Origin: Eucommia ulmoides
Lineage: Eukaryota > Streptophyta > Magnoliopsida > Garryales > Eucommiaceae
Assembly: GCA_016647705.1 (NCBI GenBank)
Contig: CM028330.1
Location: 49,106,897-49,170,896, forward strand
Length of the DNA: 64,000 nucleotides
Direction of reading: 5' to 3'
Below the pieces are notes generated by a model. It saw nothing but the letters and a program-made list of their open reading frames with translations. It was not told where the DNA came from and made no database searches. Shown one piece after another: positions 2,178 to 58,606 of this stretch (positions within the stretch are counted from its first letter, which is position 1; each line of letters opens with the position of its first letter). A program made the translations under genes and the position numbers.

Positions 2178-5100
2178 ATGAGTCGTGGAAGTGGAGGCGG
2201 TTACGATCGTCACATCACGATCTTCTCTCCCGAAGGTCGTCTTTTCCAAGTCGGTAAGCAAATGCATTCTCATTAATATCCCGAAAGTCCGGATGAATTT
2301 CGGTTCTCATTGATTAGATTTTTCAAAATTAGGATTTCCAATGTTTCTTCGGGGTATTAGAAATTGAGAGAATATTTTCTATAGAAGATTCTATGGTTAA
2401 AAGTTTGTTGCATTTTGTTATTTTATTCTCCTATTATGCCTATAAATAGTTATTTCATGTATTTGAGAAAATTAATGAGAATTAAGTTTTCATTTATTCT
2501 TTCTCTTCAATATCACCTTCTAATATGGTATCAGTAGACATTTTCAAACCATAGCAGCAGCACTGAAGAATTGCTGCTGCTCCAGTTCACGCCATCATGG
2601 CTCGTGGCGGTGGCAATCAACAACCTCCCACCACCAACAACCGTTTTCAGCCATTAACTCCTCCTTCTTCTTCTACCACCGCTCCAACTCCACCCGATTT
2701 TTTACCTATGTACAATACTCACAGTCCGTTATTTCTTCACAGTGGGGATCATCCCGGATTAACTCTTGTTTCCCAAGTTCTTACTGGTTTGAATTATAAT
2801 ACCTGGAGTCGAGCAATTTGCATGGCTCTCAATGCCAAGAATAAACTTGGTTTTGTTACTGGCACTCTTCCACAGCCTCCGCCGTTTGCTCCGTCTTCGG
2901 ATGCTTCAATGCTTGGTCTCGTTGCAACAGCATGGTCCTTTCCTGGCTTCTCAATTCTGTCGATAAAGAAATCGGACACAACCTCCTTTACATGGCCAGT
3001 GCCCAGGACGTTTGGCTTGACCTTCATTCTCGTTTTCGTCAGAGTGATGCTCCTCGCATTTTCAAATCAAACAACAATTAACTGCTCTCTCTCAAGGCTC
3101 TATTGATGTCAATCAGTATTTTACAAAACTCAAAATCCTTTGGGACGAATTAAAGGATTACCAGCCAATACCTGTTTGCCATTGCGGTGGGATGAAGATC
3201 TGGACCGATTTTCAACAACAAGAGCATCTCATACAATTCCTTATGAGCCTCAATGAATCCTTCGCTGCCATCTGTGCTCAGATTTTGATTAATGATCCCC
3301 TTCCTACCGTGAGCAAAGCTTTTAATCTTGTTATTCAAGAAGAACAGCAACGGATGATCGGATCTCCTATTTTGGCCACTGAATCCATGGCTTTCCAGCA
3401 CTCTTCACTCCTATCGCCGCCGTTACAGCTCCTCCTCAGCACCGCCGCTCCTTTTGCTCTTACTGTGAAAGAGTAGGGCACAATAGATCGCAATGTTATC
3501 ATCTCCATGGTTACCCGCCTGGATACCCGACCAACAATTCAACCCAACCCACCACCCAGCCTCTCAATCAGACCCACCGACGTTCTCAGCCCTCTCGCTA
3601 CTCTCAGCCCACGCGCCACAATCAACCCACTCCATCGGCCCAAGCTTCCTTTTTACCTCAGGCCCATTCTGTTTCTGCCCCTACATCTCATCAGCCTACG
3701 GCCCAACCCTCTTCAGCTCACAACCTGCATTTAATTTCACCCAAACCAGAATATTCAGCCCCAACAGTAACTCTCAACAGTATGGGTATTTCACCGACCA
3801 CTCTTTCCCCCTGATCAATGTCAGCAGTTGATTTCTATTCTCAGCACTCAACTCACTCAAGGCTCGCTCGCTACTACGGCTGAAAGCTCCTTGTCCAATT
3901 CCACACCCTCGGCCTCAAGCTTTGCTGGTATCGTTTCTCCTTCTATTTTTTCTATTGGCTCTCATATCATTTATGGTCACTGGATTCTTGACACAAGCGC
4001 CACTCATCATGTTTGTTGTGATAAATCTTTCTTTCGCACTTCCCTTACCCCACACAACACTCATCTCCATCTTCCTAATGGTCACCGTGTTAAAATCCAT
4101 TGCACTAGGATTGTGCACTTGTATGAGCATCTTATCCTTTCAAAAGTCTTATATGTGCCTGATTTTAAATTTAATCTTTTAAGCATAAGTGCCCTCACCC
4201 AATCTCTGCATTGTTCAGTAAATTTCTCTTCTGATTCTTGTCTCATACAGGACCGTATTCGAGGATCGACGATTGGGAAGGGTAAGCAAGAAGGCGATCT
4301 TTACCTCATAGAATTAGGACCTTTTGATTGTAATACTCCACGTTTACCTAGTTGTTCTATTTTGCAAACCGAGTCTGTAATGTCCAAACATGCTATTTGG
4401 TGGCACCATAGATTAAGTCATCCATCACTTGTAAAACTTCAAGTATTACATGATCAATTGCGCATTCCTAGTTCCTTCTTTAATTCTTCTCCTCATTGTT
4501 CCATATGTCCATTGGTCAAGCAACGTCGCTTACCATTCATTTCCCATAATACCCTCTCGCCTACTGCTTTTGATTTAATACATATTGATATATGGGGTGC
4601 TTTTCATGTTCCAACCGTCTCAAGGCATCATTATTTTCTTACCATTGTTGATGATTGCACTCGGGCCACTTGTGTATATTTGTTGACGGTCAAATCTGAG
4701 GTCAAAACCACTTTTCCCGCCTTTTATAACATGATTTTGACGAACTATAATATCCCCATTAAATCTTTCCGCTCAGACAATGCACACGAACTTGCTTTCC
4801 CCGATTTTTTTCGATCCAAAGGCATTATCCATTATTTTTCTTGTGTTGAAACTCCAGAACAAAATTTTGTTGTTGAACGTAAACATCAACACATTCTCAA
4901 TGTTGCTCGTGCCTTATTGTTTCAGTCTCAAGTTCCTATTTGTTATTGGGGGGATTGTGTTCTCACAGCTGTTTACTTAATCAATCGAACACCTTCACCC
5001 TTACTGTCCAACAAAACTCCTTTTGAGTTATTGAATCATTCCCCTCCTACTTATAGTCATCTCCGCAGTTTTGGTTGCCTCTGTTATGATTCCACACTTA

Positions 5101-8100
5101 CTCACCATCGTTCCAAGTTCTCACCCCGTGCTCGAGCTTGCGTTTTTCTTGGATATCCTTTTGGTTACAAAGGTTACAAGTTGCTTGACCTAGCTTCTAA
5201 CACAATATTTATCTCTCGTAATGTTGTGTTTCATGAGCTTATCTTTCCTTTTGTCCAATCCAAATCCATTCCACCTACTTTAGATATTTTCCATGACAGA
5301 GTTCTTCCTCGCAGTTTTTCTCCTCCATCTTCTGACTATACTCCTCGACACACGCCTGTGACCATTTCTAACCCTCCACCCTTCCCTACTCCTGATATTT
5401 TGCCTGTCTCAACCCCTTCCTCTTCATCTCCTTTTCCCACATCTTCCCGACCTCACCGAACAAGCAGGCGACCTTTCTATCTCTCTGACTATCATTGCTC
5501 ATTGGCCACTCATTCTCCTAGTTGCTTATCTACTTCCACTGCCCATCCGTTATCTTCCGTCCTTTCTTACCACAGATTGTCCCCCCACTTTCGTGCCTAC
5601 ATCTTCACCATATCTACTCCTACTGAACCTCAAACTTTTTCCCAGCCTACTAAGTTTCCAAAATGGCGAGCGGCCATGGATGTTGAGTTGGATGCTTTGG
5701 ATCGGATTGACACTTGGTATATTGTCCCTCTTCCCCCTGGAAAACATCCCGTTGGTTGTAAATGGGTCTCTAAGCTTAAGTTTCATGCTGATGGTAGCAT
5801 CGAACGCCACAAAGCTCGTCTTGTGGCGAATGGGTATACCCAACAGGAAGGCATCGATTTTTTGGATACTTTTTCTCCCGTTGCCAAACTTGTTACTGTT
5901 AAAGTTCTACTTTCTTTGGCTGCTGTTTTTGGTTGGTCTTTGACTCAGTTGGATGCCAATAATGTTTTTCTACAGGGTGAGCTTACTGAGAAAGTCTATA
6001 TGACAATTCCACCTGGATATGTTTGTCGCGAGGGGAAGACTTTGCCATCCAATGTTGTTTGCCGATTGCATAAATCTTTATATGGCCTTAAACAAGCTTT
6101 TAGACAATGGTTTTCCAAGTTTTTTGGTGTGTTATTACAAGAAGGGTTTTCTCAATCAGCCAGCGATCATTCTCTGTTTATTAAAAACACTGGTCATGTT
6201 TTCCTAGCACTTTTGGTTTATGTTGATAATATAAATGTTGCCAACAATGAACAAAAGGCAATCACCGATTTGAAAGTCTTTCTTCATGATCGGTTCAAAC
6301 TTAAAGATGTGGGAGAACTTAAGTATTTCCTAGGCCTTGAAGTGGCTAGATCTCAATTATGGATCTTTGTTTGTCACCGGAAATATGCTTTGGAATTGCT
6401 TTCCGAAACTGGTTACATAGGTTCTAAACTTGCTTCTGTACTAATGGACGCAAACTTAAAATTGTCTCAAGATGATGGGGAGTTATATGCAAATCCCACG
6501 AGTTATAGACGATTAATTTGAAAACTTTTGTATTTGACCATCACTCGTCCTGATATTTGCTATGCCGTCAATCGCCTCAGCCAGTTCATGCAATCAGCAC
6601 GGGAACCCCATTTGAAGGCCGTTGTTCGTATTCTCCAATATATAAAGGGTACTCCAGGGCAAAGACTTTTCTTTTTCCAGTAGCTCCACCATTCAGCTTA
6701 AAGCTTTCGCTGACTTAGATTGGGCTACATGCCCAGACTCACGACGCTCAATCAGTGGATTTTGTCTTTCTTGGCACTTCTCTAGTGTCCTGGAAGTTCA
6801 AGAAACAACACACTATCTCTCATTCTTCCGCCGAAGCCGAATACCGATCCATGGCGAACACTACTTGTGAAGTTGTGTGGTTACTTGCCTTGCTCAAGGA
6901 CTTCAGGGTCACTCATCATGGACCAGCTCTATTATTTTGTGATAATCAAGCTGCTCTTCATATTGTAGCAAATCCAGTTTATCATGAGCGCACCAAACAT
7001 ATCAAGATCGATTGTCATATCATCCGTGAGAAGATTCAAGCTAGCTTGCTCAAGCCTTTGCATGTTACCACTCACAACCAACTTGCTGACATATTGACCA
7101 AGGCTCTTCATCCGCATCTATTTCGATTTCTTCTTGGCAAGATGGGAGTTCATGATCTCTACTCTCCATCTTGAGGGGGAGTATTAGAAATTGAGAGAAT
7201 ATTTTCTATAGAAAATTCTAGTGCTTCTGGATAGAAAGTTGGTTAAGTTGTTAGATGGTTAAAAGTTTGTTGCATTTTGTTATTTTATTCTCCTATTATG
7301 CCTATAAATAGTTACTTCATGTATTTGAGAAAATTAATGAGAATAAAGTTTTCATTCATTCTTTCTCTTCAATATTACCTTCTAATAGGGGATTTGTTTT
7401 TTCGGTTTTGGAGCAGAGTACGCATTCAAGGCTGTCAAGGCTGTTGGAATAACCTCGATTGGCGTGTGCGGGAAGGATTCTGTTTGTGTTGTTACACAAA
7501 AGAAAGTTCCGGTTCGTAAGATTGTTTGATTTTCAAATCCCGTTCGCCCCTACATTTAGACTTTAGAGCTTTAATGGTTAGTTTCTATTAAATTCATGAG
7601 CAGGACAAGCTTTTGGATCAGACTAGTGTGAGCCATTTGTTTCCTATTACCAAGTATCTTGGACTGTTGGCCACAGGAATCACAGGTGTTTTAGCTAAAC
7701 CATTTTTCATATATAACTTCAAATCATGAATATATCACCATTTGCATTTCTTGATGGTCTTTTCTGGCACATGCATGTGATTGTTACATGGTTAACTTAT
7801 AAATTCGCACATAATTGATATCATTATATTTGCATACTTAATTTATGGTATAACCTGGTTGCTTATGGTTATATAAATGGATACGTAAATGTAATGCAAG
7901 TTTTATACTTGTCCAGTTATCTTGTTTGAGACATTGATGGAATAATGCATGGGATACTTGTATGAGATGTGGTCATAAAGCATCCATTTTTCTAGATATT
8001 ATGTGTGTATGCATGAGCTAGTAAATGACTCTTCCTCTGTATGAAGGAAATGTTTTCACTATTTAATATTTATACATTCAATTCAAATGCTGGAATTTAT

Positions 8101-11100
8101 TTATATATTCTTGTTTATGGTGATTGATATTCCTCTTTTTAGTCTGGTGGCAGTGATGCTTCATCGGAAATGGCAGTCCGTGTTTCAAGAACTAATCATT
8201 GCATTATTCTTCTGCTTTCTTGGCATGTATTTGAGTATTGTATTTACACAGCAAGGGCCATGTATTGAAATAGATCCTTATAAGTTTTTACATTTGAATC
8301 TGTGGTTGCTTGTCCTCTTTGAAGTAAGAGCTATGCCTTTGACATTGGAACTTGGCATTATCTGCATTATTATTTATGGAGTGTATTTTTATGTACGGAA
8401 AAGTGTTTCTATTAGCTCCTTTAATAAAAGAAAAGAAAGAAGTCAGGTTTTGATAATGTTCTTTTGATTTTATAGCTGATGCCAGGACCTTGGTTCAACA
8501 AGCCAGAAATGAAGCAGCTGAGTTTCGTCACAAGTATGGATACGAAATGCCCGTGGATGCATTGGCAAGATGGTAGGCTTATTTTTTTTCATTTTATATC
8601 GGCTTAATGTACCAAGGATTGCCTTATTTATTTATTTGTTTATTTTCGATTTCTCTAAATCCTCTTCTTGCTGAAGTGTTGGAAATTTGGGATCAAGGTT
8701 TTATTTGATATTATATTCTATTGGGCTTAGATCTTGTGGTGCTTATCTGAAGCTTGTCTGAACGCAATACTAACATTTCCTTCTTTTTTGTCAGATATGT
8801 TGTCCCCATTTTCCAACTATTTCTCTTTTCTTTTGAATACATCTTAGTTGATAAGTAGTTCATAAGATAATGTACTCATGGTTCTTGAATCAACTTAGAT
8901 GGGTCAGTAAAGGTGTGACAATGGTCACTAGCATACATTAATAGCAAATTTTGTATTCATGGTTCTTGGCTCAGCTTTGATGTCACTTTCACCCAAGGCC
9001 CCATCATAGTCCACTCGAAAACTCTAATACCTTACCAACATTGCAAACTGGTAAGGTTTTTTCAGAACGTGGGTACGCCTTTATTCCAAGACACTAACTC
9101 TATCCATCAAAAAATTAGATTAGAATATTTTTATATTGATTTTTTTCGTGGGTAAATTAATTAATGCTTGTATGTTATTAATTTTACTAATCATACACTT
9201 ACGTAACAAATTGTGTCTTGTAATATATGAATAGTCGAATATCTTGGCGTATATCTATCTATTCCATTTGTACAGAATTCTGCCAGTAGCTTACAACTAG
9301 GGCAGTAAATGAGTAGAAGTGAGCAAAATATTAGTTATTTTAGCTTAGTTCTTTTATTTCCACTGATGGTCGAGTTCAACCAAATCTTAGATCTTTCGTT
9401 CAAGTTTGGTTCGTTTGACTAATAAAAAAATAGAACTATTCACAAGTTATTTGAGTTAAAACTGTTTAATCATGGAACTTAACTTTTTGGGAAGCTTTAT
9501 TTATTGGTCAATGTTTAACACTGAGCAACCAAATCATACTCTGTCCCAAGTTTATTGTCTTGTGTGGCTTTTCACGAAGTTTCATTTAGTGTTTGAATAT
9601 GTTTAAATTATCCATTTTACCCTTACTGGAAAAGCTATACAAGTGTTCAACTTTTTGAATTTTGAATGTGTGGTTGAGCGAGATTTAGTTTGGAAAAAGT
9701 GGTAAAATTTGTTTGTTAAAATCGAAAGTGAAATTATTTTTTGGACATCCTAGAAGGAAAAATTTGGAAAATTATTTATGGAGGAAGGGAGTGAATTTCT
9801 TGATAAAATCAGTAGTTCATAATTGTTTTGAAGATATTTTATACGACAAATGATAACTAAGTGCTAATGTTCTTATATTATTCGAGCTGTTCACGAACCG
9901 AGTTCGAGTATATGATGTTTGATTATTTTGATAAACGACCTAAAGCTAAAGGTTGAGCTGGGTTAATTTGGTTAATTTATTAACGAATGAGTTTTGAATG
10001 AGCTATTAAGGGGCTGTGCTCAAGTAGTTCATGAATGGGATGATTTGTATGCGCACTTATAACACTTATTAAGGTATATGATGAACCACGTCACATCCTC
10101 ATTCCCCATAACCATCCTTGTCACAAATTGTGCGTAGCAAATTGTTTTGACATATGTTATTATTTGGTTCTTAATGTACAGTTTTCAGAGTTAATGTATA
10201 ATTTCAAAAAATCTTTGGCATGCACCTCAAATTGATGAAGCTTGCAACTCGTTTTGTGTCTCTTGCCGAGGCGTCACATGGCCTTAGCGGCTTAATGGTG
10301 TCGCGCACCTTATAAAACTTTGAATGCTCTCAGCAATTTTTGTTTGTGGTTTTGACATGATCTTTGTGATTAACATAATAAATGAACTTCTCTTGGTATA
10401 TCTGATAAAATAGTTGGTCAGCTAATTTTTGTTTTTATTAATTATTTTTCTTTTTTGTTATATCTATGTGATTTTAGGATTGCAGACAAGTCACAGGTTT
10501 ATACTCAGCATGCCTATATGAGACCTCTTGGAATAGGTTTGAAATCTTGTGCACTTGAGCTGTAGATTTTTATTACTTTCCAAAATGTATTTTGTCTATA
10601 AATTTGCTGGAGCATTTGATATATCATATATGTATCTATAGCTTCTTGTTTATTGTTTTTTGTGGTGCTATCTTCTAAGTTCTAACATTTCTCCGTTTCT
10701 ATTTTTCCCATATTCAAGTTGCTATGGTTTTGGGTATCGATGAGGAGAAAGGGCCTCAATTATTTAAATGTGATCCAGCTGGTCATTTTTTTGGTCACAA
10801 GGTATTTGACAGTTATTGTTGTATTTAATCTCATTAAACATGTAGCCTTTGGTTTGTTCTGATTCTTATCCTCTTCACTTCTCGTTTAATTGGCCCACCA
10901 TACATGACCTTTTTGTTTGTGAAAATCTTCTTTAAAATCTCCATGGTGCAATGCATATTTTACTGGTATGTGAAGCTGTGATACAGACTAATGTTTTATA
11001 CATTAGCAATATAAGATACCTAGCGACAACAAAACAGAAAAAAAAGATTCCTGAAAATCGATTTGGAAATTAGTACTAGAGGAATCTAGTGATACTCTGA

Positions 11101-13328
11101 ACTTGATTTGTAGGCTTGAAGAATTAGTTTTGTAGATGTTGAATCCCACATTACTTGTGTTACCTGATCCTGAGCTATATATAAAACCTAGGGCAATCCT
11201 CATATTACAAGGCATCTTTTAAGAGTGAGTTAGGCCTATTGGATTTCTACATGATATGATTCTTGTCTGATGTTGGGTGTGTTGAATCCCACATCGATGT
11301 TGGATTCCCCGATATCCGTTTGCAGTGGTTTGTCAAAAAGTTCACCCTGCGCATGAGGGGGCATGTTGAATCCCACATCGATGTTGGGCCCCCTTCCCCC
11401 GATATTCGTTTTAGTGGTTTGTCAAAGTCCACCTTGCGCATGGGGGCGTGTTGAATCCCACATTGCTTGTGTTACCTGATCTTAAGTTATATATAAAGTC
11501 TAGGGCAATTCTCATCTTACAAAGCGTCTTTTGAGAATGAGTTAGCCCTATTGGATTTCTACAGTACATAACGGCCCTGTTTGTAGTGTTTCTGTTCTCT
11601 AATTTCTGTTTTTGTTCCTATAAAATCTGGAAGAGAAATAGTTATATGCAAACTTTAAAAAAAAATCTGGTCCTGCTCTACTCCCAGATTTTCAGAATAA
11701 ATTTCTTGGATGAGGTGTTAGTGTTTGACTTTGTTCATGGATGTTTTATGCTGATAGGAATTTTCGACCACCTGTGGAACTTATCAGAATTAATCCTACT
11801 TTTTGCAGGCCACAAGCGCTGGATCTAAAGAGCAAGAGGCAATTAATTTTTTGGAGAAGAAAATGAAAAATGATCCTGGCTTCTCTTATGAGGAAACAGT
11901 GCAGGTAAAACTCATTGCCAAAATGGTTTATTTTTCTGGGAAAGCCTCAAAATTGCTCAAGTGCTTACTAATGTAGTTAATTGAATGCTTTAGACTGCTT
12001 TGCGAGCATGTACTTACATTTGCATGTAATGATACTCACTAATGACTGATTTTGCAGACGGCCATATCGGCCCTCCAGTCGGTTCTGCAGGAAGATTTCA
12101 AGGCCAATGAGATTGAGGTATTGGAAGGCAATGATCTTTAATTACTTATTGCATTATAAACTTTGCCATGTTTTTCATCCAACTTTCTCTGGTATTCGGC
12201 TTCTACTCTCTTTTGCATCAACATCTTATTGTCTTCTTGTAGGAAGAATGTTGGAATTTGTGGCTCTCAAAATCAAATAGGATTGTAGGCAAATTGAAAT
12301 TTTCTAAGTTGCATCTATATATTCTTTAGGCCCCGCTTCGTCATTGTTTTCGTTCTTTAATTTATGTTTCCGCCCTCAAAATTTTGGAATTAATGTACAG
12401 AAATGCATTTGGTAAACATGTTTCTGTTCCCAAAAAATTTGGGAATAATTTAGAAGTAATTCCTGAATTCCTTAAGAATTTGAGGAACGAAAAAATGTTG
12501 ATTCTTCATTCTCTCAAAACTATTCCCACTACCACCTAGCCGGTCACCACTACCCCATCCGGCCACCATACGTTCAGAGGGGAAAAAACAAGAACAAATG
12601 TTTGCAACTAAAACGTGTTTCTTGTTTTTGTTATCGTAAAATAGAAGGAACAATTTTAGGACAATGGTCGTTACCAAGGATGTTTCTATTCCCGGAATAC
12701 TCCAGAACGAAAATAGAATTTCCATCCCAATTTATTAAAAGTAGAAACTGAAAAGCAAAAGCACTAACAAACCGCCACCTTAGTTTCATTTATAGTTCCC
12801 TGACTTTTTTTGTTTCTTTTCGTTTGGGTTTTGGGTAAATGCTTGATCTTTTTGATGAAACCATTGAATTGGGAGAATTCAGACCTTATACCTAGATACA
12901 TTTGTGTATTTAACAAGCTCCTTGTAGCACTTCATTCACCATATGCTCTCCTATTGATTTCATTTCTATTCTATCCTCCATAAGCTAACAAAACTTCGGA
13001 GACCTTAAGGCACGTTTGGTAGGCGGTAATAGAATTAGATTAATAATGAAATGGAATCGAAATATGAATGAGCAACCTCAAAATTTTGATTCAATTCCGT
13101 CAAAATGTTATTTCATTACCGCCTGCCAAACATGCCCTTAGTCCTTAAATATTTTAATTTTTTCAATTCATTTCAATGCTGACAATCACTGGCATAAATG
13201 GTGTGTTTTTTTTTGTTTTTTTTTTCTTGGAGCAGGTGGGAATTGTGAGAAAAGAGAATCCGGTCTTTAAAGTGTTGTCCACCGGGGAAATAGATGAGCA
13301 CTTGACCGCCATCAGTGAACGCGATTGA
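2178..13328 (+). CDS. PAA1: 20S proteasome subunit alpha type-6 (alpha1)
   Basis: Encodes an alpha-ring subunit of the 20S core proteasome, acting in ubiquitin-dependent protein breakdown in cytosol and nucleus. Exons by GT-AG rule: 2178-2253, 7417-7511, 7604-7685, 8476-8572, 10478-10536, 10719-10801, 11809-11904, 12058-12117, 13236-13328. They total 741 nt, 246 aa plus stop, the length of human PSMA6. The N-terminus [20 protein letters not shown], then GRLFQV-EYAFKAV, is the alpha-subunit signature. Further matches are [59 protein letters not shown] and the final ISERD. All splice phases agree and no break is seen. Intron 1 (5163 bp) is 126 bp plus a Copia element and its 4-bp duplication; intron 6 holds a TRIM and intron 8 a MITE. 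The start is fixed by family homology: an in-frame upstream ATG at 2043 has no family counterpart. It converges on the SSL gene. Confidence 0.95.
2355..2525 (+). repeat. 5' LTR of Copia element
   Basis: 171-bp LTR ending in CTTCTAATA directly before the TGGTATCAG primer-binding-like site. It is shorter than its partner but nearly identical over the shared part. A promoter-like CCTATAAATAG lies inside. Confidence 0.9.
2597..3500 (+). pseudogene. Copia gag-like region (fossil)
   Basis: Starts after the primer-binding region with a proline- and threonine-rich N-terminus, followed by the Copia gag hallmark of a leucine-valine segment then [12 protein letters not shown]. Later parts hold an EEQQR-type gag tail and a short Cys-rich stretch. 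Degraded; product not predicted. Confidence 0.75.
3828..7174 (+). pseudogene. Copia pol region: integrase, RT, RNase H (fossil)
   Basis: Parts in order: a protease-like [10 protein letters not shown] segment near 3980, the GAG-pre-integrase zinc segment ([10 protein letters not shown], then a CPLVKQRR motif near 4510), the integrase core with HIDIWGAF and FRSDNAHE, the reverse transcriptase with [18 protein letters not shown] and [17 protein letters not shown]-like motifs near 5700-5870, and RNase H with [13 protein letters not shown] near 6820 and a HIREK-type tail. This order is diagnostic of Ty1/Copia. Overall broken. Confidence 0.88.
7182..7387 (+). repeat. 3' LTR of Copia element
   Basis: 206-bp LTR following the purine tract at 7171-7181. 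Its end is only 29 bp before PAA1 exon 2. Its terminal CTTCTAATA resembles a plant splicing branch point (see findings). Confidence 0.9.
8573..10477 (+). other. PAA1 intron 4, no gene seen
   Basis: A 1905-bp intron. AT-rich. It contains a degenerate segment (about 9880-10060) with the words TTCGAGCTGTTCACGAACCGAGTTCG and AACGAATGAGTTTTGAATGAGC broken up by substitutions, a type often found in old plant repeats. No intact element or reading frame was recognised. Confidence 0.45.
11137..11563 (+). mobile_element. TRIM element in PAA1 intron 6
   Basis: A terminal-repeat retrotransposon in miniature, 427 bp. The two 115-bp LTRs (11137-11251 and 11449-11563) run TGTTGAATCCCACATT...GGATTTCTACA, each with a TATATATAA promoter-like box. 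The 5' LTR is followed by TGATATGATTC, resembling a methionine-tRNA primer site; purine-rich ATGGGGGCG precedes the 3' LTR. Flanks GTAGA (11132-11136) and GTACA (11564-11568) look like a slightly diverged 5-bp target duplication. The short interior is an 85-bp unit present twice. It has no coding capacity, as expected for TRIMs. Confidence 0.8.
12327..12777. repeat. MITE-like foldback relic in PAA1 intron 8
   Basis: The left end (AGGCCCCGCTTCGTCATTGT) and the reverse complement of the right end (AGGTGGCGGTTTGTTAGTGC) are similar, followed by related TTTCG/TTTTGCTTT words and repeated GTTTCTGTTCCC-type motifs on both arms. The ends resemble those at 13802-14027 and a fragment at 11572-11640. 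No clean target duplication was seen, so the boundaries are approximate. Confidence 0.45.
13008..13137. mobile_element. Tourist-like MITE in PAA1 intron 8
   Basis: A 130-bp element flanked by TTA on both sides (13005-13007, 13138-13140). Terminal inverted repeats are about 22 bp: AGGCACGTTTGGTAGGCGGT at the left; the reverse complement of the right end reads GGGCATGTTTGGCAGGCGGT. The TTA duplication and GTTTGG terminus fit the PIF/Harbinger (Tourist) group. It lies 98 bp before exon 9 and has no coding capacity. Confidence 0.82.
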
Positions 13329-16400: not shown

Positions 16401-19400
16401 ATTGATTAGAGCCATTCAAATCCAAACCAACATCATAAACAATTAACACTTTTGGACGTGCCATTATTTGAGACCATTTTTTTTTCTTTCATTGTAAACT
16501 TACCACTCCAATTTTTTTTCGCTTTCAATGATAAATTCAATAATCTCTCTTTCAGACATTAGATCTTTCGTTGACTAACTCTCGATCAGTTTTTCTCTCT
16601 ATAACTATTGGGCCAAAATTGTTGTAATTTGATCTCTGATATCAGTGTAAAGTGATCTTTGGTATCTCTCAATCTCAAAAGATAGTTTATCAAATAAGAC
16701 TTTCTCTCACACTTATAACCTGAGCACCAGCTCCTTCCACATCCGATGCTGGATAAAACCAACATTTATCAATCATACATTTTCTTTTTGATTGACCGTC
16801 GTGCTCAAGCCAATTTGCGTACATCTTGAGATTAATCTCCTTCCTCATAGGATTTATGCTCACTCTTAATGCCTCACAGTCCAGCAACCAACTATGGAGT
16901 GTGACTCGAACCCTGATTGTTGTGTGAGTTATACTCACTCCAATACTGATATGAGAAAACTCCCGCTCATAACAGATATAGGTGTGCAGTCTTAAACGGA
17001 TCGGATCGGGTTTAAAATACGATCCAGGACAGACAGACCCAATGGGTTATCTGGGCCAAAGAATGATGAGTCCAATTGAGTACCAACTTCGGCAGTCTTC
17101 TGTGCAAGCCTAATGGTCTCATGAAGAGGCTTATATTTAGGTATATCAAAGCCTACGATGTTCAAGTCCAAAAAGCGAACAAGTCAACCCATTGTGAACA
17201 TCTCCCCTACGCTTGAAGAGCATGATAAGCCAGATTGACTGTAACGACCCATATCGAATAGGGACCGTTACATAGATCTCTCCTGAAATCATGGAGATAT
17301 TGGCTATCTTCTAAACTGTTAGGAGCATATTACGTAACATGCGACATTTACTTATGATTCAATCTGCGTATTATTTTATCAATCACCCGATTAACTTATT
17401 CTCATGTCGGAGGTTCTTTAACTGACACCACACTGGTGTCCCCCTTGAGAACTCACGGTTTTACAGATTATAAAGAAAGGCGAAAAGATTTTCATCACTT
17501 GCGGAGCTGATACACGTATTGGGGATTTCTGATAACATCATTTGACGCCATCTATGAGAAACGCTAACGAAAAAAGCTTTCTGTCACAACTATTAGGCAA
17601 CCACGAGCAAGCGGAGCAGTGACGAGTCAAAATAATGACTTGCCGCCGCCATCTAATATAAAAATACCGGTGGAAACACATGGGGAAGTTCAGGTTGATC
17701 ATCCGCCAATGGTGCTAAGCAATGATGAGAAGATCGATGCTCTCATTACAAAGATGGCCGAGATGGCAAATACGATCAAGTACATGGCGTGGATAATCGC
17801 CAATAACAGGTCGCACTCCCCGGCAACCAACAACGACGTTGGAGAAGAAATAGAATATCTAGGGTATGCTGACCTGCAATCCCATGGGGAGCAACCTGCC
17901 CAGGGAGAGACAAGCAATCAGCAAGAAAGAATGGTACATAGCCGAATTGAGACTGTTGATTCGCATCAACAAATCAAAAGCAAGGTGGAGAAAGGTCAGC
18001 CTTTGGATGAACTGGATACACTATTCAAAAGATACTGAGATGCCGCTTTCACCAGATATCCTAGCTGTTCCATTGTCCGAAAAGTTTGATCCCACGAAGT
18101 TTGAGAAATATGATGGGAAAGTGAATTTTGTGGACCATATCTGCCAGTTCAAACAAGTTATGAACCTGTATGGTTCAAACGACTCCACACTTTGCAAAGT
18201 TTTTGCCACAACACTAACGGGTTCAACCCTTAAGTAGTTACATACGCTCCCACCAAACTCCATCACGTCTTTCAAAGAATTTGGGAAGATGTTTATCAAC
18301 CGCTTCATAACCTGTCAAATGTTGATGAAGGTCCTGATTTTCTGTTGGCCCTGCGTCAAGAAAAAAGAAAAACTTTATGCCAGTATATGAGCTGATTCAA
18401 CGAGGAATTGACAAGCCTTGAGGGTTGTAATACAAACCTCATTATCAACGCATTCACCTCAGGATTGCGACCTAGCCGTTTTCAAGACTCCCTCACCAAG
18501 AAAACCCCCCAGAGCATGTCGGAGCTGATGGAAAAGGCTAAGTCCAACATGAAGTTGGAGGATGTCAAGCTCGCAAGAGAAGGTAGGGGGTCTTTCAAAG
18601 ATCACCCCAGACAAGGCAAGAAAGACCATAGCAAGGCAAAAGTCAATAGTTCAGACAGGCGGAAAGATTGACCTAGGAGCTCAAGTTCTAGATCAGAAGT
18701 TTGATAGGAGTCAAACCTGCCCAGTCTACGAATGTCGATCTCAAGAATCCAGCACGAAATATGTGTATCTAAGGTAATTCAATGGTCTCCCAAGCAGACT
18801 ACCAAGTCCAATAGGAATAACAGGTCCAAGTACTGTGATTTTTATAGGGACCATACAATACAGATGACTGCTTAGAGCTCAAAAATGAGATAAAATGTTT
18901 AGCTGATATGGGTTAGCTACGTGACTACTTACAAGAGCATTCAAGGGACAAAAAGAGGCTTAGAAATGAGGGCCTTCGCGCAGAACATCATGAAAAAGAG
19001 CACAAATAAGATCATCCCAATGAGAATCGTGAAGTAATTCTCATGATAAATTCTGTTGGGCCAACAATCGGAGAATCCAACCGTGAACGGAAAAAAAAAA
19101 AAGTCCATGAAGCAGCACTGGAGCGCTGCTATGAAGAAGCAATGGCAGTAACAACAAATCTTAGACCAATCATCACTTTCTCAGAGGAGGATTGCAAGGG
19201 GATTGTTCACCCGGATGCTCTGGTCATCACTCTATGGAATTCTAGCTTCCAGGTAAAGCGGATTCCGATCAATAATAGTAGTTCCACTAATATTATTTTT
19301 GTGGATACTCTAAAGCAGATGGGAATACCCTCGGAAGTCAGTTCCACACAGACAGTTATGGTGGGATTCAACGGCCACCTTACATTACCACGCGGAAATA

Positions 19401-22400: not shown

Positions 22401-25400
22401 AAACTACATGGATATACAATGAACTAAAGATTCAACATCGAACATTCAATCTAGCACACCTGCAAGCCAATAGACAAGTAGAGGTGATAAACCGTTCCAT
22501 CAAGAAGACACTCAAGAAACGACTAGATAACGCCAAAAGAAAGTGGGTAGAAGAACTCCCAAAAGTATTGTGGGTCTATCGACCACCCCAACGTCTACAA
22601 CCAGAGAAACACCCTTCTCCCTAACTTATGGAATTGAAGTTGTCGTTCCAGTAGAGATAGGGATGCCGTCTAGACAAAATGACACGATCAACCTGGTGGA
22701 GAATGAATAACTCATACAAGAAGAAATGGATTAGCTAAAAGAGATATGAGACAGAGCATTATTGAGGATGGCAATTTACAAATCAATAATGGCACGAATG
22801 TTCAACCATACAGTTCGTCTACGATACTTCGTCGTAGGAGACTTGGTACTTCGAAGAGTAATGCCTCATCGACCAGAAGCGCGCTTGAGAAAGCTAGCTC
22901 CTAACTGGGAAGGCCCTTACCGAGTTACCAAAGTGAACAGACCAGGAACCTACTGGCTTGAGGACTTTTATGGCGTAGCGATCCCCAGACCCTGGAATAT
23001 CTCTCATCTATGCAAATATTTCGTATAAATTCTTGATCATTTTTTCTTAATTTTTGTCTTTTATTCAATATTTTGAAATCATTCTCTCTCGTTTTGAGAA
23101 ACTCTTTGAATAAAGCAAATAAATTCTCTCTCCATTAACCTTGCAGCATTTATTATTGGGTAACTATGCTTCTGTATTTCCTACAACACTTAGTGAATTA
23201 AAACTAAGTGTGAAACAGACAGTTGACATTAAGGTCAGCATATAACTGGGCACCTCGGCCTGGCAACAACTGAGCTCTTCAGCTCAGTAGTTAATTGAGC
23301 GCGTCAGCTCAGCAATCAATTGGGCACCTCAACCCAGCAACAACTGAGCTCCTTACCTCAGCAATTAATTAAGCGCATCAACTCAACAATTAATTGGACA
23401 CCTCGGCCCAATAACAACTGAGTTCCTCAAATCATAATCTAACTTAGCACATCAACTCAACATTAGCTGGGCACCTCAGCCCACCAACAATTGAGTTTCT
23501 TAACTCAGACTCTAACTGAGCACGTCATATCAGCATTAACTAGGCACCTCAGTCTAGAAATAACTCAGTTCCTTAACTCAGACTCTAACTGAGCACGTCA
23601 GCTCAACATTAACTGGGCATCTTGGCCCAGAAACAACTAAGTTCCTTAACTCAAACTCTAATTGAGCAAGTCAGCTTAGCATTAACTGGGTACGTCGGCC
23701 CAGATACAAGAGAGTTCCTTAACTCATGATCTAACTAAACGTATTAGCTTAGCCTTAACTAGGTACCTCGGCCCAGTGGTAATTGAGTTCCTTAACTCAG
23801 AATCTAACTGAGTACCTCAGCTCAACATCAAGCAGAGTTGATATGTTCTTTAATGAGCAGAGCATGACAGTTCGCTCACGACAACTGACGGCTTAATTCA
23901 AGTTTTGCTCAGCATTCAACTGAGTATTTCATTTTAACTTAATCATTTGATCATATTATATTGAATTATGATTATAAATGAGGGTAGGACAACCCAACAA
24001 ATCTTAACAGAACAGATCAACCCAATCTTGGATGACACTGTTTGAATTACCTCACCCCTTAATTTCTAGCCTTACTGATAAAGCGAAGTAAGTGTTAATC
24101 TCCATAATTTACTTATCATCAATATTGTTCAACTTCTTCAATAAGAAAAATCTAGAAAACTTATCTCAGAGTTCAAAGAATAGTTAACATCTGGGAGAAT
24201 GTTGATTTTATTTGATTAGTATGATAATGCTGGTTTTTATGACTAAGTTGGTGATTCAAGCTTTCGACCCACTACCACTAACCTAATGCTTAGTTCATAA
24301 CTAGCATAGTTTTCTAACCAAGTTATAAAAGAGGGTAAGCAGGAGGATAAACGCAAGGCAATACAAACAGTTAATGAAGCAAATGCAACACAACACAAAA
24401 CCAAGAACATCAAGAACACAACACAAGACCAAGAACATCAAGAACCCATATTTTTCATTATCAAAAAAGAGAAGGGGGTACATGGCTAAAAAAAAATTAG
24501 AAGAAACTGTTCTCAAGAACAGAAAAAATTGTTATTCCAAAACACACACACACACACACACAAAATAAATAAATAAATAAAATAAAATAAAAAATCTTCT
24601 TCATAAATTGGGGCTGAGAGGGGTTTCATTTCGACGCCGGAGAAGCAGGCGAACCCAGATCTTCTGAGTCTAAGTTGGAGAAGTAAAAGGCATGCTCCTC
24701 ATACTTATTGAGCTTGTTGATCAGGTCACGGATCTTGGCCCTCTTTGTTTCATTCTTCTCCAGAAGTTTATCCTGTTTTGCCTTGATAATGTCGGTGAAA
24801 AGCTCGTGATAGTTGAAGTCGACAACTTAGTCACGCTTGCTCCGTTCGGTCTTATTCAACTCCTCCCTAAGCTAATAAAGACAAGAGATGGCTTGGAAGT
24901 GTGTCACTTCCATGGTAGAAAAGATAGAGGTAGCTTCCTCTAGGGCACGTAGATGAGGACGATCTTCCATGGCAGTCTTCGCCACCAACATCAAGGAATG
25001 GAAACAATCTCCCAATTCTATCTCATTGCACCTTTTAGACTGAATTGCTTTAAAGAGAGAAAGTTTAGTCCATAAAGTGGATGCCATGAATGCAGAAAAT
25101 GTAAAAATAAATAAGAAAGAAATATTTGAGAAATGAAAATTGAAACGAAAGAAAGCGTCTGGATTTGTGAAGAATTATCAATGCTTGGTTTGCCTTTAAA
25201 TAACCAGACAAATGAAGAAATAGAGTGAGCTAAAACGTCAAAAAATGTGCATTAAATGTGCGAGCGACGTGTGCTGACAGAATATATACTACAATTATCA
25301 CAAATACATTCTCGAGACTTAAAACAGCGATTATTGTTTTAATACAAGCCATGATGATAAAGTGTTATCATTACTAAAAATTAATTACAAACGTGCAAAA

Positions 25401-39736: not shown

Positions 39737-41705
39737 ATGGACCATTCGAAATGGTTTTACTATCGGAGACACTCGAAATCTCGTGGAATTTTCAATGGAA
39801 TCTTTGCTTTCGTATTGTTTCTCTTCTTCTTCCACCATCACGATCACACTCTTACGCGTCCTTTTGTCAGCCTTTCGCCTCCAGTTCGTTCTCGAGACTT
39901 GAGCTCTGATGGTGGAATTTTCAATCCGGTTGAAATCAATAGGAGGAGACAAATTGCTGAAGTTAGTGCGACACATTCACATTTGAGTTACACTCTTGAC
40001 GATATTGGTGTTGTCGAGAACAATCTCAGTGCCATCAGGGACCCGACGGCGTGTGCTGGATTGTCTGAGCACAAAGGCTACAACTCCCGGTGCGAGTACT
40101 TGACAGCCAATCCAGAGTGTACCTCCGGTGGATTTTTCAATTACATTTCGTTTTTTTACTGTGGATGCAAGAACTATAGCTTTCTGGGTTATTTGGTACT
40201 ATCGATTTGGCTGCTCGCTTTGTTCTATCTATTGGGCAACACAGCCGCGGACTACTTCTGTTGTAGCCTCGAGAAGCTCGCGAATTTGTTAAGGCTATCT
40301 CCCACGGTTGCAGGGGTGACTCTTCTTCCCCTCGGGAACGGAGCGCCAGATGTTTTTGCCAGCATCGCCGCCTTCGTGGGGGCAGATTCCGGCGAAGTGG
40401 GGATCAATAGTGTCTTGGGTGGGGCCGTGTTCGTCACTTGTGTTGTGGTGGGGACAGTTTCTCTTTGCGTGGCGGATCAAAGGATTCAAATCGATAAGAA
40501 ATGCTTCATTCGAGATGTATGTTTCCTTCTCTTTGCTCTTATTGCCCTATTGGTTATTTTGATTGTGGGTGAGGTGAGTGTTGGTGGAGCGGTTGCGTTT
40601 GTTTTGATTTATGCTGTTTACGTGTCATTCGTTGCTGCTAATGAGATCTGGAAGAAGTATTCCAAGAGGTCGAATTCAGACACTTTTACCCCTATGCTAC
40701 CTGTTTCGTGTCAAAATATTAATGTTCCACTACTCGATAACGGTTCAGAGAAAGGAGAAGTGTCACACAACCAAACAAGGCTTCCTCATTGGATGTGGGC
40801 TACGAATGTGGCGATGTATTCGAATGAAGGTGTAAAGGGTATCGAGGAAGAGGAAAAACAATGCCTTTTGTGGGGATGGAACGATGAGGACGAGCAGACA
40901 AACGAAAACTCGCCCTTTTCGTGTTCTAACTTGTGTAAGTGGTTGCAAATGCCACTGACACTCCCAAGACAGTTAACAATACCGATAGTGGAAGAGCAAC
41001 GTTGGTCTAAAGTTTACGCCGTTTCGAGTGCGTCATTAGCACCTATGCTTCTAGCATTCCTATGGAATACAACTCAAGATAATACGGGTTCTATGAGTGG
41101 AGTAATAGCATATGTTATTGGTGCAATAGTTGGTATTGTGCTTGGAATTCTCGCATATATATACCCGAGCGGATCAACCGCCCAAAAAATTCTTATTTCC
41201 GTGGGTTTTTGGCGGGTTTGTTATGAGTATCGTTTGGTTCTACCTCGTTGCGAATGAGCTTGTTGCTTTGCTTGTTGGATTGGGTGTGATATTTGGAATC
41301 AAGCCGTCCCTTCTTGGATTAACTGTTCTTGCATGGGGAAATTCGATGGGTGATTTAATGTCAAATGTGGCTTTGGCTTTGAACGACAGGGACGGGCTTC
41401 AGATCGCCATGTCGGGCTGCTACGCCGGGCCTATGTTCAACATGCTTGCTGGTTTGGGGATTTCGATGTTGTTTGGGGCGTGGTCGAAAAAATCGGGTTC
41501 TTATGTGATTCCGAGGGATTATAGCTTGTATTTTACGCTGGGTTTTCTGTTGTTTGGGCTTGTGTGGTCGCTCATTGTTTTGCCAAGAAATGAAATGCGT
41601 CCTAGCAAGGTGTTGGGGTTGGGACTTATGGCGATTTACGTGATTTTTCTCTCGCTTAGAGTTAGCCTGGCTGTAAGTGTCGGGTTGCTTAGCGGTTGGA
41701 GTTGA
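39737..41705 (+). CDS. CCX: Cation/calcium exchanger (CCX3/4-like), frameshifted
   Basis: A single-exon gene for a membrane cation exchanger of the CaCA superfamily, expected to swap Na+, K+, Mn2+ or Ca2+ for protons or other cations. About 655 aa, near the 640-odd of Arabidopsis CCX3/4. Seen: an N-terminal hydrophobic segment, a Cys-rich loop ([23 protein letters not shown]), transmembrane segments, the first alpha repeat [17 protein letters not shown] (GNGAPD at residues 200-205), a hydrophilic loop (about residues 310-420), and the second repeat [17 protein letters not shown] (nucleotides 41337-41354). The frame changes once between about 41153 and 41166, after GILAYIY and before [13 protein letters not shown]; both sides match the family. 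One extra base (or two missing) in ATATATACCC would explain it. It is a recent mutation or an assembly error; no intron fits. Confidence 0.9.
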
Positions 41706-42300: not shown

Positions 42301-42415
42301 TGCTGAATCCCACAATACTTGTGTTACTTGATCTTGAGTTATATATAAGTCTAGGAGTAATCCTCCTATTTCAAGGCGTCTTTTGAGAGTAAATTAGGCC
42401 CATTGGATTTCTACG
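42301..42415 (+). repeat. Solo LTR of TRIM family 1
   Basis: TGCTGAATCCCACAATACTT...CCCATTGGATTTCTAC aligns end to end with the 115-bp LTRs at 11137 and 11449, including the TATATATAA box. No partner LTR or interior is nearby, so it is a solo LTR. No target duplication seen. Confidence 0.75.
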
Positions 42416-47065: not shown

Positions 47066-47743
47066 TGATATAAGGGAATCTCGTCAGGTACACCACGTGG
47101 TCAATATCCACCCAATTATAGAAGAGCGGCCGAGATGAGAGCTGAAATCCCCTCAGTACCGAGCTGGGATGCCCCCCAGCCGACCTGAGGGTCGTCTCAG
47201 TAAAGAAATCCGGACCGACAAGCTGCAATCCGACCTGCCGAACTAATGAGCTGAGACACCATTTGCTCGCCACCTCCGTACTCGGGAGTTCATCAGGCCG
47301 TTGTGAGGTTCTAGCCCATGGGCTTCTACATATGGGCTCAAAAGCTAGCCCAGACGTTTAGATGGCTAACCTGCCTGCTCATTGGCTGTCCAGCGGACTA
47401 TGTTAATTAACCTGAGTTTGGTTCCCTAATTTTGCGTCACTAATCAAGCCTTGGCACCTATAAATACACCGGGGCACCCATTGCCCAGAGGTATGTGACC
47501 ACTACTGAACTCACTATATTTTCAGCCCTTCACCCTCGAATACTTACTCTTACGCCGAAAGGACTTTACCGGGTACAACCCCGGTAGGTCTTTGTGCAGG
47601 TGCTCGGAGTAGAAAAGTGGAGCTCAACTCGGAGATTGTCACCACCCCTGAATTCAACCAATTGTAGTGCTAATAGCAGTCTTATGTCCCCAATATCCTT
47701 CCGAACCATATTGTTGACCCGTCACCATTTTTTGACATCAACA
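47066..47743 (+). repeat. 5' LTR of Gypsy element 2
   Basis: 678 bp, with a promoter-like CCTATAAATACACC near 47457 followed by a leader-like region. It ends TTTGACATCAACA directly before the primer-binding-like site. Confidence 0.95.
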
Positions 47744-56793: not shown

Positions 56794-57050
56794 TTTGTTC
56801 GGACAAAGAAAAAAAAGGTACCAATGCCGAGGAGGTAGAATGAGCTCTGCAAATTATGCAAGTGCCAAATGAAAAGTAGGGGCCACCATTTATAAAAGGA
56901 TGGTGTGCCCAGACGAAAGGTCACAAAGGCTAACGGCTGGGGATGCCTTGATTAAAATGCCACTGCCACGTGGTACCCATCCAACGATGGTGGCATGGCC
57001 TATCACACAAGTCAGAATGGGGGGACACGTGTAGCGCGTTTGCCACGTGT

Positions 57051-58340
57051 GAGGTGGAAGGCTCTCAAACTTCCCACCCTCAAAAAATTATAAGGCATGA
57101 AAAATGGTCGAGCTCACGACTCTACGGGCTCTCAGCTCGGACAAAATCAAAAGGGGGAAGGCTCTCAAACTTCCCACCCTCCAAAAATTCTAAGGCATGC
57201 AAAATGACCTAGCTCACGACCCTACAGGCTCTCAGCTCGGACAAAATCAAAAGGGGAAAGGCTCTCAAACTTCCCACCCTCCAAAAATTCTAAGGCATGA
57301 AAAATGACCGAGCTCACAAGCCTACGTACTCGCAGCTCGGACAAAATCAAGGGGGGAAGGCTCTCAAAACTTCCCACCCTCCAAAAATTCTAAGGCACGC
57401 AAAATGACTGAGGTCACAACCCTACGGGCTCTCAGCTCAGACAAAATCAAAAGGGGGAAGGCTATCAAACTTTTCACCTTTGAAAAATTCTAAGGCAGTA
57501 AACATGGCCGACCTCACGACCCTACGGGTTCTCAGCTCGACCACTTTCAAAAGGGGGAAGGCTCTTAAACTTTTCACCCTTGAAAAATCCTAAGGCAGTG
57601 GAAGTGGTTGACCTCACGACCTAACGGGCTCTCAGCTCGGACAAAAATAAGGAGAGGAAGGCTCTCAAACTTCCTAACCTCAAAAAATTCTAAGGCATGA
57701 AAAATGGCAGAGCTCACGACCCTACGGGCTCTCAGCTTGGCCATTTTCAAAAGGGGGAAGGCTCTCAAACTTCCCACCCTCCAAAAATTCTAAGGCATGC
57801 AAAATGATCGAGTTCACGACCCTACGGGCTCTTAGCTCGGACAAAATCAAAAGGGAGAAGGCTCTCAAACTTCCCACCCTAAAAAAATTCTAAGGTATGC
57901 AAAATGGCCGAGCTCACGACCCTACGGGCTCTCAGCTCGGACAAAAACAAGGGGGGGAAGGCTCTCAAACTTCCCACCCTCAAAAAATTCTAAGGCATGG
58001 AAAATGACCGAGCTCACGACCCTACGGGCTCTCAGCTCGGCCACTTTTAAAAAGGGGAAGGCTCTCCAACTTTTCACCCTTGAAAAATCCTAAGGCAGTG
58101 GAAGTGGCTGACCTCACGACCTGACAGGCTCTCAGCTCAGCCACTTTCAAGGGGGGAAGGCTCTCAAACTTCCCACCCTCAAACAATTCTAAAGCATGGA
58201 AAATGGACGAGCTCACGACCCTACGAGCTCTCAGCTCGGCCACTTTCAAAAGGGGAAAGACTCTCAAACTTCTCACCCTTGCAAAATTCTACGGTATGGA
58301 CAATGGCCGAGCTCACGACCTGACGGTCTCTCAGCTTGGC
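57051..58340 (+). repeat. Minisatellite, about 100-bp period, 13 copies
   Basis: The unit reads roughly GAAGGCTCTCAAACTTCCCACCCTCAAAAAATTCTAAGGCATGAAAAATGGCCGAGCTCACGACCCTACGGGCTCTCAGCTCGGACAAAATCAAAAGGGG, shown here only by its key words: GGCTCTCAAACTTC, TTCTAAGGCATG, GACCCTACGGGCTCTCAGCT. The word GGCTCTCAAAC recurs every 98-101 bp from about 57060 to 58260. Variants group into TTTTCACCCTTG and TTCCCACCCTC types. It lies between the antisense ORFs and the 3' LTR of Gypsy element 2. Confidence 0.92.
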
Positions 58341-58606
58341 CAACATTCAACACCTGAAAGACTCCAAATTCTTGCTGCCCACCGTCACTTCAGTCGTACT
58401 GCTGACCTGCCGAACAGACGAAATGTCTTATCATAAGCCCGAACTCTATTATTTTCCCTTTTTCTTACCGCCGTTTTTCCCCCTAGGGGTCCATGGTGTG
58501 CCACTTTTGCATTTTGTGACCCTCCTTCACCACTACTACCAGTTTGCTCCTTCAAAATCCCGAGGCCGTCACGTTTCACTCATGCCCCCGGGACTTGGGG
58601 GGCAAC

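Follow-up and report, generated by a model that had tools for sequence, protein, structure and literature searches.

How can an intron still be removed when a retrotransposon has been inserted some 25 nucleotides upstream of its acceptor? The question is raised by a stretch of 64,000 nucleotides of the Eucommia ulmoides genome (the window: assembly GCA_016647705.1, contig CM028330.1, positions 49,106,897 to 49,170,896; G000:C6:49106897-49170896 in our searches, which covered a genome of 946.67 Mb in 391 contigs), where a Copia element bounded by long terminal repeats (LTRs) lies in sense orientation within intron 1 of PAA, a gene predicted to encode the α6 subunit of the 20S proteasome. We propose, with a probability that we put at roughly 0.68, that CTAAT at the very end of the Copia 3′ LTR is used as the branch site for removal of this intron.

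The PAA gene on C6 (2178-13328 of the window; the features of the gene and of the element lie on the forward strand) has nine exons and 246 codons, over which no frame break was found, and all of its introns are GT-AG. Its first 117 residues match spinach 7qve_B with an E value of 2e-67, 220 of the 246 residues are identical to those of the spinach protein, and the protein matches PF00227 and PF10584 of Pfam; it is on this full-length similarity to plant α6 that we assign the predicted product. Exon 1, from the ATG to the splice donor, occupies 2178-2253 and exon 2 7417-7511. Between them runs intron 1 (2254-7416; 5163 nt), from the donor GTAAGC at 2254 to the acceptor CAG that ends at 7416, and within it the Copia element fills 2355-7387. 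Rebuilt without the element, the empty intron measures 126 nt, with the insertion point 25 nt upstream of the acceptor, or 29 nt if the duplicated bases are included. The interval from the end of the LTR to exon 2 (7388-7416) is 29 nt long and contains a host T-rich tract, TTTGTTTTTTCGGTTTT (7393-7409), while every base at least 30 nt from the acceptor is LTR sequence. The motif CTAAT occupies 7382-7386, and its adenine A7385 lies 31 nt upstream of the intron's final base. The preliminary description of this DNA, which had proposed a branch point in the LTR, gave the 126-bp, 29-bp and 31-nt distances exactly and correctly noted the T-rich tract after the LTR end. The argument for an LTR branch point thus rests on position, rather than on the rarity of the motif.

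Intron 1 has nine adenines 11 to 60 nt before its end, of which A7385 alone sits in the branch consensus YTRAY. By our own simple count of pairing with U2, A7385 scores 10 out of 14 and the next best adenine 6. The single host adenine in the usual range is A7392, at 24 nt, in the context AGGGGAT, with no T at -2 and a score of 3; the other adenines, all in the LTR, lie at 29, 32, 39, 42, 44, 45 and 58 nt and score between 0 and 6. According to the part of PMC5640774 on which we rely, YTRAY in Arabidopsis is found mainly 20 to 36 nt before the acceptor, the reported mean for 19 proven sites being 33-34 nt. With its adenine at 31 nt, CTAAT falls within that range. Of the remaining 15 introns in the two PAA genes that we describe here, 13 have YTRAY at 11-52 nt, CTAAT being among the forms found, and 10 have it at 20-36 nt. 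The rebuilt empty intron has no YTRAY within 60 nt of the acceptor, the nearest being at 66 nt, and TTCCAAT, at 38 nt, scores highest between 11 and 60 nt. If exon 1 is spliced to the acceptor that ends at 7416, these distances all but force the branch into the LTR, and A7385 is the most likely branch adenosine. The claim that a branch point could lie only at the LTR edge is therefore borne out in that no other YTRAY occurs within 60 nt, in the present or the empty intron, but is too strict in that host A7392 is available, albeit in a poor context; the LTR-end branch point itself agrees with geometry and consensus and is a prediction from the sequence.

The motif was brought in by the element. 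CTAATA ends 25 of 30 aligned LTRs of the family, and YTRAY plus one base ends 26 of 30; three of the five LTRs without CTAATA are incomplete or diverged at the 3′ end. The 30 LTRs are loci drawn from 41 listed family matches, with the 5′ LTR of the intronic element taken whole, and they are not all independent, three small contigs sharing their flanks. Genome-wide, TTCTAATA directly adjoins the primer binding site TGGTATCAG at 108 places, as against none for the reversed control, and from these junctions and the family termini we conclude that the motif arrives with the element. The near-ideal distance of CTAAT from the acceptor might have suggested that it is an evolved feature of the gene, maintained by selection, rather than an ordinary element terminus; we rejected this idea as highly improbable, since the same CTAATA closes the family LTRs at large, including the element's own 5′ LTR, and recurs at the 108 junctions.

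The element displays the hallmarks of Ty1/Copia: paired LTRs, a primer binding site, a polypurine tract and a target duplication. The 5′ LTR (2355-2525; 171 nt, with a 35-nt internal deletion) is followed by the primer binding site TGGTATCAG (2526-2534), which we take to be of the tRNA-Met type. A gag open reading frame (2597-3106; Retrotran_gag_3) carries PF14244, the Copia-type gag domain, and a pol open reading frame (3828-6521; integrase region and RVT_2), which meets an in-frame stop before the end of the element, carries PF22936, PF13976, PF00665, PF25597 and PF07727 in that order, so that integrase precedes reverse transcriptase; PF00665 (rve) scores below its Pfam cut-off. The polypurine tract GAGGGGGAG (7173-7181) abuts the 3′ LTR (7182-7387; 206 nt), which includes TATAAATA at 7303-7310. 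The LTR ends, here and in most aligned family copies, read TATTAG...CTAATA and not TG...CA, which is usual but not obligatory. Leaving aside the 35-nt deletion, 5 of the 171 aligned sites distinguish the two LTRs (K ~0.030); with a substitution rate of 8.25e-9, taken from a section of PMC7603500, the insertion is about 1.8 million years old (rescaled Poisson interval roughly 0.6-4). The target-site duplication reads GGGG at 2351-2354 and again at 7388-7391, its length of 4 bp being that given in the preliminary description. Judged by their paired flanks, the duplication is a clean 5 bp at six distinct sister insertions, and at a seventh four of the five positions agree (three small contigs with identical flanks were taken as one); GGGG is therefore probably a 5-bp duplication that has lost or changed one base at the 3′ junction, rather than an original 4-bp one.

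From these observations, we hypothesize that the sense insertion put the element between the former branch region and the acceptor with its T-rich tract, and that the last bases of the element, CTAATA, which form part of its terminal inverted repeat, would now occupy the position expected of a U2 branch site. A7385 would serve as the branch adenosine, and the 5.16-kb intron would be removed with the host donor, pyrimidine tract and acceptor. The effect would be permissive: the insertion would bring its own replacement, and no evolved function of the element is implied. Productive splicing of the C6 locus is likely, although the joining of exons 1 and 2 there and the use of A7385 are inferred, whereas the anatomy, the distances, the lack of another consensus site and the intact coding sequence are observed. 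We also considered, and rejected, a transcript started in the LTR as the source of the full protein. Read in frame with exon 2, the end of the LTR gives the stops TAA TAG (7383-7388), no ATG follows before exon 2, and the next methionine is residue 109; no full-length protein can therefore be made unless exon 1 is joined to exon 2. An LTR promoter within the gene, which the preliminary description had raised, could accordingly not yield the whole subunit.

Several points weigh against this proposal. When the final 120 nt of intron 1 are shuffled 4000 times with dinucleotides preserved, a YTRAY arises by chance at 20-36 nt in 24% of cases, CTRAY in 5.5% and CTAAY in 3.7%; at 11-52 nt the figures are 50% for YTRAY and 13.6% for CTRAY. 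When the empty intron is shuffled, 31% of the resulting sequences have YTRAY at 11-52 nt, so that the lack of one in the rebuilt intron is unremarkable taken alone. The exons might also be joined by way of a different branch, at host A7392 or deeper in the LTR, at an adenine 39-58 nt from the acceptor; indeed, any of the LTR adenines other than A7385, from 29 to 58 nt, may be a branch site. Plant branch sites are degenerate: in one set of constitutive Arabidopsis introns reported in PMC5640774, of which we use a part, YTRAY is present at 11-52 nt in 59.8%, leaving about 40% without it, and 2 of the 15 other PAA introns likewise lack it. A7392, however, has G at -2 and a low U2 score, and A7385, at 10, outscores the adenines 39-58 nt from the acceptor (3-6); we regard a branch at A7392 or at one of those LTR adenines as improbable. 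A sister Copia copy warns against reading function from geometry. At this copy (L033/L040; G000:C2, ~32369786-32374911), CTAAT stands 32 nt before the end of TTTTTCAG. The bases from the LTR to the CAG form an open frame, GCLGIIFQ, which is LOB-like, and the downstream flank is probably coding, judged by this frame, although a Pfam search of that flank detects no LOB domain. The same spacing beside probable coding sequence thus probably serves as a soft negative control.

A more serious alternative is that PAA on C6 is no longer productively expressed, through termination in the Copia element or through silencing, and that a paralogue supplies the protein, in which case the question of the branch point would be moot. 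A second PAA gene, on C16, is intact, with nine exons and an intron 1 without insertion, 137 nt long, in which CTAAC lies 28 nt from the acceptor. PAA on C6 is thus neither the only intact copy nor the sole source of the α6 subunit, and the preliminary description overstated the case in holding that an essential gene may depend on retroelement sequence. The two proteins differ at 17 residues (dN about 0.035, dS 0.9-1.1); the low dN/dS spans all of the time since the duplication, most of it before the insertion. Eight changes are assigned to the C6 lineage and five to that of C16. If only positions that spinach and human share with the other copy are counted, the changes number three against one: A41G, R43C and R228K in C6 fall where C16, spinach and human agree, and the sequence alterations at such conserved sites could mean that the C6 gene is failing. 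The most striking change in C6 is R43C, in exon 2, where C16, spinach and human α6 all have R. The 8 to 5 split, however, is not significant (chi-square 0.69), and four further differences could not be assigned to either lineage. The nine exons and the splice dinucleotides of C6 are all intact, although this is weak evidence of use, given that the small divergence of the LTRs has left little time for decay. Alignment of the empty C6 intron with the C16 intron scores 65.5, above the maximum of 55.0 among 200 mononucleotide shuffles, and alignment of the 140 and 160 nt that precede the two start codons scores 74.5 against a shuffle maximum of 57.5; from both results we conclude that C6 keeps a recognisable 5′ leader.

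Termination within the element is a matter of the LTR poly(A) signals, one of which the preliminary description had placed in the gene. AATAAA is present at a shared site in 25 of the 30 aligned LTRs, and in the intronic element it is found in the 3′ LTR (7342-7347), where it could end transcripts early. The proximal 5′ LTR reads AATTAA instead (2480-2485), not the canonical hexamer; this could weaken early polyadenylation, with the caveat that plant poly(A) signals are loose. The suspected signal is thus present in one LTR and altered in the other. A Copia 5′ LTR in intron 1 of Arabidopsis RPP7 ends transcripts, according to the portion of PMC7529245 that describes it, and this precedent makes early termination a real alternative at PAA. 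On balance we consider loss of productive expression from C6 unlikely, and continue to prefer splicing by way of the LTR-end CTAAT.

The RPP7/COPIA-R7 case resembles PAA on C6 in that a functional gene has a Copia element in its first intron and transcripts that read through it; it differs in that the documented consequence is EDM2- and H3K9me2-controlled polyadenylation at a proximal site within the 5′ LTR, and the portion of PMC7529245 concerned mentions no branch point. Transposable elements supply all or part of predicted branch sites in the human pseudoexons presented in a section of PMC7951965 (LTR78/AluJ in F8, AluY in CEP290, L1MD3 in GPR143). Those, however, are aberrant exons activated by disease mutations, whereas in PAA on C6 the exon is coding and ancestral and keeps the tract and acceptor of the host, and the element would contribute the branch site only. 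Gene-transposon chimeric transcripts of Arabidopsis (PMC10241880, in part) show that genic transposons change splicing and transcript ends, Copia being slightly over-represented in splicing events, but the paper deals with donor, acceptor, start and end sites, and no word that starts with 'branch' occurs in its text. Grapevine introns, too, have been lengthened by LTR retrotransposons (PMC3058033, in part), without replacement of a splicing signal next to the acceptor in the part that we cite. An arrangement like that of PAA on C6 was not found described in a search of open-licence papers, largely by listing. Branch sites predicted in transposable elements are thus known, and the apparent variant here is that an ancestral coding intron would have exchanged its branch site while keeping the host tract and acceptor.

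If this is true, an insertion between branch point and acceptor, which one would expect to disrupt the gene, can be neutral since the transposon end doubles as a splicing signal. A broader idea, which we hold only tentatively and consider less probable than not, is that the family terminus TATTAG...CTAATA accidentally matches the U2 branch consensus, such that an element inserted in sense a short way upstream of an acceptor supplies the branch point itself and is tolerated; in PAA on C6 it would have replaced and improved a branch region without a consensus site, and an old proteasome gene would be spliced through a transposon. The predicted consequence is a bias, families with branch-like ends being found nearer to acceptors, in sense, than families without them. 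The C6/C16 pair offers a natural control within one genome.

Branch motifs at LTR ends do not appear to be a general rule, and we discarded that notion: YTRAY occurs in the preceding 14 nt at just 1 of 30 exact TGGTATCAGAGC loci, a sample made up of the first matches on contig C1, out of 7164, some of which may have spacers or border no LTR. To look for more insertions next to acceptors, the genome was screened for ACCTTCTAATA followed by CAG, with 216 matches where the reversed control had 131; the 11-mer alone had 986 against 856, so that LTR ends are not separable from chance by this screen; places were taken from the first 100 matches listed. The single lead taken from this screen, the sister copy on C2, interrupts a LOB-domain gene with stop codons, its upstream flank being LOB-domain coding sequence with stops (PF03195). 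A similar stretch about 1 kb further downstream suggests tandem copies.

The remaining exons of PAA on C6 lie at 7604-7685 (exon 3), 8476-8572 (exon 4), 10478-10536 (exon 5), 10719-10801 (exon 6), 11809-11904 (exon 7), 12058-12117 (exon 8) and 13236-13328 (exon 9, with the stop codon). Intron 6 (10802-11808) contains a 114-nt repeat twice, at 11137-11250 and 11449-11562, and a third copy, 84-85% alike, is found at 42301-42414; this is probably a small repeat element. Elsewhere in the window, two tandem arrays each lie inside a larger putative LTR element, between its paired direct repeats: one of 73-nt units at 23316-23826, between repeats at 16947 and 27526, and one of 100-nt units at 56956-58454, between repeats at 47066 and 58607. 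An open reading frame at 39737-41257 resembles cation/calcium exchangers (PF01699), and its overlap with another in a different frame (41130-41705) may indicate a frameshift near 41130-41257.

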